Below, piece after piece: positions 30,295 through 32,344 of a DNA stretch of 40,428 nucleotides; the first letter of the stretch is position 1, and each line of letters opens with the position of its first letter. The stretch is from the NCBI GenBank assembly GCA_021777495.1, contig JAJYDL010000004.1:1-40428 (forward strand), given 5' to 3'. Origin of the DNA: a bacterium (lineage in GTDB: Bacteria; Patescibacteriota; Minisyncoccia; UBA6257; 2-01-FULL-56-20). The notes below the pieces were generated by a model, which did not search any database, was not told where the DNA came from, and saw nothing but the letters and a program-made list of their open reading frames with translations. Position numbers and translations under genes: made by a program.

Positions 30295-30618
30295 CTAGGC
30301 CGCCGCTTCGGCGGACGCCGAAGCTTCCGCTTTTTCCGCCTGCTTCTGTACCGGTTTCGGCATCTTCACCGCCTTCTTTGCGGAAGAAACCACGCCTTCC
30401 TTCACGAGAAGGTTATGCGCGGTGACCGTGGGCTGTGCACCGGTCTTCAACCAATACTCAGTGCGGTCCTTTTTAATCGTCGCTTTCTTCGTGAAAGAAT
30501 TGTAGGAACCGAGATCTTCCACGGGAGGAGCTGCCATTTTCGAACGGCTCTCCGCCACCACGAGGCGATAGCTCGGCTGATGCTTCTTTCCGATGCGCTG
30601 TAATTTGATGGCCAACAT
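30295..30618 (-). CDS. rpsP: 30S ribosomal protein S16
   Basis: MLAIKLQRIGKKHQPSYRLVVAESRSKMAAPPVEDLGSYNSFTKK...EYWLKTGAQPTVTAHNLLVKEGV. Confidence 0.94.
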   Translation of the reverse strand: MLAIKLQRIGKKHQPSYRLVVAESRSKMAAPPVEDLGSYNSFTKKATIKKDRTEYWLKTGAQPTVTAHNLLVKEGVVSSAKKAVKMPKPVQKQAEKAEASASAEAAA

Positions 30619-30682: not shown

Positions 30683-30860
30683 AGCTAAAACGCTCCGCAA
30701 ATGCGGGGCGTTTCGCCAAAGCCCAATGGGCGTTTTGTAGGTCCAACCGAAGATCTCTGGCGTAAAGCCAGGTGGGTGGACTCAGCCTGCAATCCACGGA
30801 CAGCAGGTGCTCTCGTCCTCCCTTTTAGTAATGTTTGATCCGAGATCTAAGGCCAGACCC
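30683..30860 (-). ncRNA. Candidate stand-alone structured RNA of unknown family
   Basis: TATAAT at 30871-30866 just upstream; closing stem 30860-30842 with 30757-30739; two hairpins with complementary loops; hairpin CTGGC-TTTAC-GCCAG; terminator at 30687-30713. Confidence 0.65.
30687..30713. terminator. Intrinsic terminator at 3' end of candidate RNA
   Basis: aaaacgctccgcaaatgcggggcgttt. Confidence 0.75.
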
Positions 30861-30865
30861 ATCTT

Positions 30866-30871
30866 ATTATA
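30866..30871 (-). promoter_or_regulatory. -10 element of candidate RNA
   Basis: GTATAATAAG on minus strand. Confidence 0.6.
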
Positions 30872-30985
30872 CAAAAGGAGTATCCGGTTTGCTACATCGA
30901 ACATCGCGGATGGGCGTAAAACCGCACACCCGCCCGAGATACGGACCTGGATTATTTGAAAAATCAAACCTACAATGGATATGAT

Positions 30986-32344
30986 ATGACGATCCGTTCG
31001 CGAAGAATCCTTTTTTACGGGCTATTCGCCCTTTTTTTGGTGATGGGCACCGGAATTGCGTTCTACGCCCAAGGATGGCGATTCGATTTCATGACGTTCA
31101 AAACGGAAAAAGTGGGCGCCATTTATGTGGAATCCCATCCGGAAAATGCCGAAATAACCCTTAACGGGAAACCGATCCAAAATGCAAGCGGGTTTCTGAG
31201 CCACGGCACGCTCATTTCGAACCTTTTCCCCAAAAATTACATCCTTTCCCTTAAAGCTCCCGGATACGACGCCTGGTCCGAAAACGCCAGGGTAGCCCCC
31301 ACGCTCGTCACGGAAATGAAATATGCCGTACTTGTCCCTTCGAACGCGTCGAGCGTCTCCCCCATCGCCAATGTGACCGATTTCTTCGAGGCGGGAGGGA
31401 ACGTGGTGACGGAAGCATCGGACGGAACGATCGCCCGGGCAACGACGACCATCGTACGCGGTACGATCGTAAGTCATGGAAGCGACTTCGCGACCATCGT
31501 CACGCAGTCGGCCAAAGGGGGTTATTCGGCGTACGACCTCCTGAACGGAACGAGTACGAATCTTTCGGCCCTCCTCGCGTCCGCCGGAGCGACAAGGAGC
31601 GCCATTTCCGCCGTAATCGCGAACCCTTACGACGATGCGAGCATCTTCGCGGAAACCCCGAGGAAGTTCTATGCGATCGATCTCGCCGGAGGAGGAGCAC
31701 GCAATACCGTCACGGCCTTTGCGACGGCACCCGTCGGGGAATCCCTCGAAACGCCTCTTGCGATATCGTCGTCATGGCTCGCATGGGCGCAGTACCATGT
31801 CGCATCCGACACGTCCCAGATCGTGGTCTACGATCCTTTTTCGGGCGATACGATCGACTCGTCGCTCTCCATTCCGGGAACGGTGGCATCGCTCAAGTGG
31901 GTACGGGGCACGCTTCTCGGGATCCTCGGCGCGGACGGGAGCCTTTATCGGTACGACATCCCCTCCGAGACGCTCACCAAAATGGCGGATGACGTAAAAT
32001 CGTTCTTCCCCACGGACGACGGATCGACCGTGGCGGCCCTTGAGGGGCGGAGTGTCGAGATATTCTCGCTCACCCTTCCCGCGGACCAAGGCGGATACTA
32101 CCGTTTCAATCTCCCCGATATGGGCTCGGTACGCTCACTTGCCTGGTACCGCGACAACAGCCATCTTTTCGTCGCGTATCCCACCCACGTCAACTTCCTC
32201 GATCTTGCGGATCTTTCGCTGCGGAACCTCACGGAAATATCCGCGCTCGCTCCGGAAACGGATCCGTTCTACGACGCATCGCAAAACTCCCTCTATCTCA
32301 TCGATCAGGGCTGGAAGCTCATACGGTTCGATTTTCCGAGCTGA
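30986..32344 (+). CDS. PEGA-domain protein with N-terminal TM and beta-propeller-like C-terminal part
   Basis: KVGAIYVESHPENAEITLNGKPIQNASGFLSHGTLISNLFPKNYILSLKAPGYDAW; start codon uncertain. Confidence 0.78.
   Translation: MTIRSRRILFYGLFALFLVMGTGIAFYAQGWRFDFMTFKTEKVGAIYVESHPENAEITLNGKPIQNASGFLSHGTLISNLFPKNYILSLKAPGYDAWSENARVAPTLVTEMKYAVLVPSNASSVSPIANVTDFFEAGGNVVTEASDGTIARATTTIVRGTIVSHGSDFATIVTQSAKGGYSAYDLLNGTSTNLSALLASAGATRSAISAVIANPYDDASIFAETPRKFYAIDLAGGGARNTVTAFATAPVGESLETPLAISSSWLAWAQYHVASDTSQIVVYDPFSGDTIDSSLSIPGTVASLKWVRGTLLGILGADGSLYRYDIPSETLTKMADDVKSFFPTDDGSTVAALEGRSVEIFSLTLPADQGGYYRFNLPDMGSVRSLAWYRDNSHLFVAYPTHVNFLDLADLSLRNLTEISALAPETDPFYDASQNSLYLIDQGWKLIRFDFPS

Follow-up and report, generated by a model that had tools for sequence, protein, structure and literature searches.

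6S (SsrS) RNA restrains RNA polymerase by mimicking an open promoter; in E. coli, pRNA synthesis on this RNA starts at U44. The family is described as widespread in bacteria except Actinobacteria, where Ms1, an RNA with a 6S-related fold and a central bubble, binds core polymerase (PMC9130861). In B. subtilis 6S-1 RNA, the 3' strand of the bubble carries a small hairpin that is already formed in the free RNA (PMC8876501), a feature of the B. subtilis and lactic acid bacteria type (PMC8876501, PMC8414754). A truncated 6S-1 consisting of the bubble and two short arms supports binding, pRNA synthesis and release in vitro, with an affinity that is about tenfold lower (PMC8876501). In the published pattern for pRNA templates, GG occupies positions 4/5 or 5/6 of the pRNA and a conserved A immediately precedes the start (PMC8414754). 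We found no description of 6S RNA in Patescibacteria in the literature searched, which lay outside the main distribution surveys (Barrick 2005, Wehner 2014), so that prior reports are possible.

A small RNA gene with its own promoter and terminator

The structured RNA at 30740–30860 on the minus strand of the window (the whole stretch of DNA analysed here, 40,428 nucleotides long) is a real small RNA gene, and its parts are listed in Table 1. The initial annotation had described an independent, promoter-driven and terminated structured RNA that is not an rpsP leader, and this description held: the TATAAT element is read directly in the sequence, a terminator-like hairpin is present, rpsP has its own promoter past that hairpin, and rpsP is absent downstream in most homologs. 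Within the 20 nt upstream of the RNA, 54 of 60 homologs have a TATAAT-like hexamer (at least 5 of 6 matches); at a control distance, 2 of 60 do. Terminator-like sites follow the RNA in 30 of the 60 homologs versus 8 of 60 in an upstream control; the window's own terminator is modest, and strict terminator scans did not list its hairpin. With its own promoter and terminator and its intergenic position, the window RNA shares a feature of 6S/SsrS genes. A search of the window for tRNA and tmRNA returned none.

Only about 7 nt separate the −10 element of the rpsP promoter from the likely ATG at 30618 (window 30655–30615, minus strand; likewise in locus L003), and the rpsP mRNA may be leaderless or nearly so.

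Table 1. Features of the RNA gene and its surroundings in the window.
Feature	Position	Strand	Basis
−10 promoter element TATAAT of the RNA gene	30866–30871	minus	sequence
Very probable divergent 6S-type RNA, body about 122 nt	30740–30860	minus	R1 match, sub-threshold RF00013 match, covariation
Closing stem, outer part, 5' strand	30851–30859, pairs with 30740–30748	minus	9/9 pairs with compensatory changes
Closing stem, inner part, 5' strand AGAUCU	30843–30848, pairs with 30751–30756	minus	6/6 pairs with compensatory changes
Central bubble, 5' strand CGGAUCAAACAUUACUAAAA	30823–30842	minus	column conservation, 60 homologs
Predicted start of the putative pRNA (G)AUCCGAGAUCUAAGG, across from U30838 or C30837	30837–30838	minus	by comparison with U44 of E. 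coli; precise nucleotide ambiguous
Base of the apical arm, 5' strand GGG-A-GGAC	30815–30822, pairs with 30774–30781	minus	covariation
Apical terminal hairpin CCUGC-u-GUC(CGUG)GAU-u-GCAGG	30786–30807	minus	6/6 modelled pairs with compensatory changes
Base of the apical arm, 3' strand GUCC-A-CCC	30774–30781	minus	covariation
Hairpin CUGGC-uuuac-GCCAG on the 3' strand of the central bubble, inside conserved CCCACCUGG	30757–30771	minus	covariation
Closing stem, inner part, 3' strand	30751–30756	minus	covariation
Closing stem, outer part, 3' strand	30740–30748	minus	covariation
Likely intrinsic terminator AAACGCcCCGC-auuu-GCGGaGCGUUUU	about 30687–30713	minus	sequence
Separate rpsP promoter TTGACC-18-TATAAT	30655–30626	minus	sequence, after the terminator-like hairpin

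Distribution of the RNA

Searching with blastn matched 20 of 101 related genomes. A covariance model built from 18 of the relatives found in this way (R1) scores the window RNA at 119.4 bits over its full length, the window being among its training sequences, and it matched 139 of 200 genomes of the order with one full-length match per genome and a single exception with two. A later model raised this to 151 of 200, about three quarters of the genomes sampled, and in the phylum the new models matched 131 of 380 and 150 of 362 genomes. Named relatives with the conserved sequence are Candidatus Parcubacteria assemblies. The distribution shown by these searches is wide and mostly single-copy. Two neighbouring copies occur in one genome (G123; L094, 144–269 and 486–610), an arrangement reminiscent of 6S-1 and 6S-2, and three further genomes (G269, G026 and G035) have two matches each with R2 or R3, the models described below.

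The conserved fold

The predicted fold of the window RNA has a free energy of −76 kcal/mol (z = −4.8), and none of 200 shuffled sequences was as stable. In an alignment of 60 homologs that was fitted to a covariance model, and is therefore biased toward the modelled structure, compensatory changes occur in 30 of 33 pairs and 91.9% of cells are paired, compared with 68.5% after shuffling and no more than about 50% when the structure is slid. An unfitted MAFFT alignment, folded by RNAalifold's own prediction, agreed on the apical arm, on its terminal hairpin and on the hairpin of the bubble; the closing stem was not recovered from it. After the addition of 6S loci to the alignment, 92.3% of cells are paired versus 61.5% when shuffled, and the covariation is kept.

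A closing stem, a large bubble with a hairpin on its 3' strand, and one continuous apical arm make up the fold that the homologs support. Both the closing stem and the CUGGC/GCCAG hairpin had been proposed in the initial annotation; the stem is borne out in its outer and inner parts by sequence and covariation and the hairpin by sequence, and the homologs and covariation that it had named as a check are found in related genomes. The base of the apical arm is paired in 98.3% of cells, with compensatory changes in all four GGAC/GUCC pairs, and the bubble hairpin in 93.5%, with compensatory changes in four of its five pairs. On the 5' strand of the bubble, CGGAUCAA is the most conserved stretch among the 60 homologs. 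The segment GAUC-UCG-GAUC (30837–30848, minus strand) is conserved with little variation and could fold on itself into a small hairpin, in competition with the inner closing stem.

Relationship to Rfam 6S RNA

As the initial annotation had suspected, the window contains no match at or above the gathering score of any Rfam family. A permissive cmscan matched RF00013, the 6S family, to the window RNA end to end and on the correct strand at 18.5 bits (gathering cut-off 46.4); the other two weak matches of the RNA concern the opposite strand and the terminator end. The same RNA was matched by RF00013 in 4 of 20 diverse homologs (25.0, 24.2, 21.6 and 16.2 bits), on the correct strand and in one case partially; 6S was the only Rfam family to recur at the RNA itself at low threshold. 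RsmY, Leu_leader, TD-2, rimP and other low-threshold families gave scattered matches that were not repeated across homologs, and they were set aside. A whole-genome search of the window's own genome with RF00013 gave no match; in the window's family no match exceeds the cut-off, and of the weak ones only one (G005) falls on the RNA. Across the phylum, RF00013 matched 31 of 380 sampled genomes at E ≤ 1, only 4 of them above the cut-off (up to 60.2 bits) and 27 more weakly.

Since the scores at the window RNA and its homologs lie below the cut-off, a bridge through other Patescibacteria RNAs was needed. A model built solely from the window's relatives in its order (R2) coincided in position and strand with RF00013 at each of the 20 RF00013 loci fetched (E ≤ 5e-4 at 19), and in whole-genome searches it found 26 of the 31 RF00013 places of the phylum, including all 4 above the cut-off. 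A wider model with phylum-wide members added (R3) recovered three of the remaining places (G528, G357 and G234), all outside its training set. In L150, E. coli ssrS was not spanned in full by any R2 or R3 match, so the window RNA is connected to Rfam 6S by way of intermediate RNAs of Patescibacteria. As judged from these model matches, homology of the window RNA to Rfam 6S is shown through intermediates in the same phylum. Rfam misses the RNA in the window, as it does in most tiny-genome Patescibacteria in which the RNA occurs.

Comparison with described 6S-type RNAs

The internal architecture of the RNA had been said to differ from that of 6S, a view overturned by the covariation-supported fold and the link to RF00013 via intermediates. 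The window RNA has the closing stem, large asymmetric central bubble, 3'-strand hairpin and apical arm of 6S/SsrS RNA, with covariation in every helix and a model match from end to end, together with the invariant GG/CC pairs (GGG/CCC) that close the bubble, the CCCACCUGG motif and the conserved 5' bubble strand. It differs in its length of about 122 nt versus about 184 (E. coli ssrS, 183–184 nt), in its shorter apical arm, in a score far below the gathering cut-off, and in the absence of the outer closing stem (Rfam consensus UGUUCG...CGGCA), that is, the outer half of the stem. The −10 element, ending 5 nt before the RNA begins, leaves no space for this part, and we take the loss of the outer stem as what makes the window RNA a variant, given that a truncated 6S-1 lacking long arms remains functional in vitro (PMC8876501). 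The Patescibacteria 6S RNAs above the cut-off (L096–L099) are found at the same place and strand by RF00013 and by the model of the window's relatives; L096 and L097 retain an outer closing stem with UGU...CGGCA, outside the part that the window-type model matches.

B. subtilis 6S-1 shares the small hairpin in the 3' bubble strand, the equivalent here being CUGGC/GCCAG; it is longer, and its pRNA start has been mapped experimentally at nt 40, whereas that of the window RNA is predicted (PMC8876501). The activity of the truncated 6S-1 in vitro makes a short natural form plausible. Ms1 resembles the window RNA in its central bubble and differs in its length of about 300 nt, its extra terminal hairpins and its binding of core polymerase (PMC9130861). 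We regard it as very probable that the window RNA belongs to the 6S (SsrS) RNAs, in a divergent and shortened form carried by a Parcubacteria-type Patescibacterium; it would probably bind the RNA polymerase holoenzyme with housekeeping sigma and be released by pRNA synthesis.

Alternative explanations

A new RNA class with a kissing-loop core, as first envisaged for this locus, seems to us next to impossible. The five-base complementarity of CCUGC and GCAGG is present in the window, but the two hairpins that were to present these segments in their loops (GGAC/GUCC and GUGGA/UCCAC) are paired in 68.4% of cells versus 67.9% in shuffles across the 60 homologs, with no clear excess covariation, and both hairpins and the kissing interaction were rejected. 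Their letters fall in the covarying apical arm GGG-A-GGAC/GUCC-A-CCC and its terminal hairpin, so CCUGC and GCAGG covary as part of a nested, continuous helix, and RF00013 ties the RNA to 6S. Hardly more credible is a cis-regulatory leader of rpsP or of the neighbouring gene for a PEGA-domain protein. Although the RNA lies directly upstream of rpsP in the window, that gene has a promoter of its own, the RNA is followed by a terminator-like hairpin, and rpsP lies downstream in only 4 of the 40 flanking loci searched, those of the four nearest relatives; as a general role, an rpsP leader is contradicted by this loss of synteny while the RNA structure is retained. The PEGA-domain gene is divergent to the RNA beside it across the family; it lies on the opposite strand. 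It occupies 30956–32341 on the plus strand of the window and is found in most family relatives (most of L002–L020, L036, L039, L044 and L045), a wider synteny than that of rpsP.

The loss of the outer closing stem and the large sequence divergence could also point to a 6S-derived or 6S-like RNA with a changed function, one that targets core polymerase or a different sigma holoenzyme and is not used as a pRNA template. Ms1 offers a precedent as a 6S-related RNA that binds core polymerase in Actinobacteria; it is longer, however, not shorter (PMC9130861), and the 5' bubble strand, from which pRNA synthesis starts in known 6S RNAs, ranks with the best conserved stretches of the window RNA. We consider such a change of function unlikely.

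Proposed mechanism

As a 6S RNA, the window RNA would probably bind the holoenzyme with the housekeeping sigma factor by mimicking an open promoter, with the closing stem standing for downstream DNA, the internal bubble for the melted region and the apical arm for upstream DNA, and polymerase would be held off promoters under slow growth. The genome encodes one RpoD-sized sigma factor and five smaller ones, and the target holoenzyme therefore exists. In all, six proteins with sigma-70 region 2 are present in this genome of about 0.7 Mb (G000; contigs C4, C14, C15, C18, C22 and C25), the five small ones being ECF-sized.

For release, the 5' strand of the bubble would serve as the pRNA template, with synthesis starting at about 30837/30838 and proceeding toward the 5' end to give a pRNA like (G)AUCCGAGAUCU. 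The conserved CGGAUCAA sits where the E. coli pRNA starts (U44). Set against the published template pattern, the consensus AUCCGG places GG at positions 5/6 if the start lies opposite U, while the conserved A would suit a start across from the following C; the sequence in the window is AUCCGA. Synthesis of the pRNA would open the inner closing stem and thereby release the polymerase. By analogy with helix P2 of B. subtilis 6S-1 (PMC8876501), this part of the stem is expected to be unwound during pRNA synthesis.

Implications

It is conceivable, if speculative, that these RNAs form a natural minimal 6S lineage that lacks the outer closing stem, has a release mechanism or polymerase target of its own, is near-universal across large sections of the Patescibacteria and has so far escaped annotation. 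If the window RNA works as 6S RNA does, global control of polymerase by an RNA extends to bacteria with reduced genomes. These RNAs also offer naturally short forms in which to test the need for individual parts of 6S.
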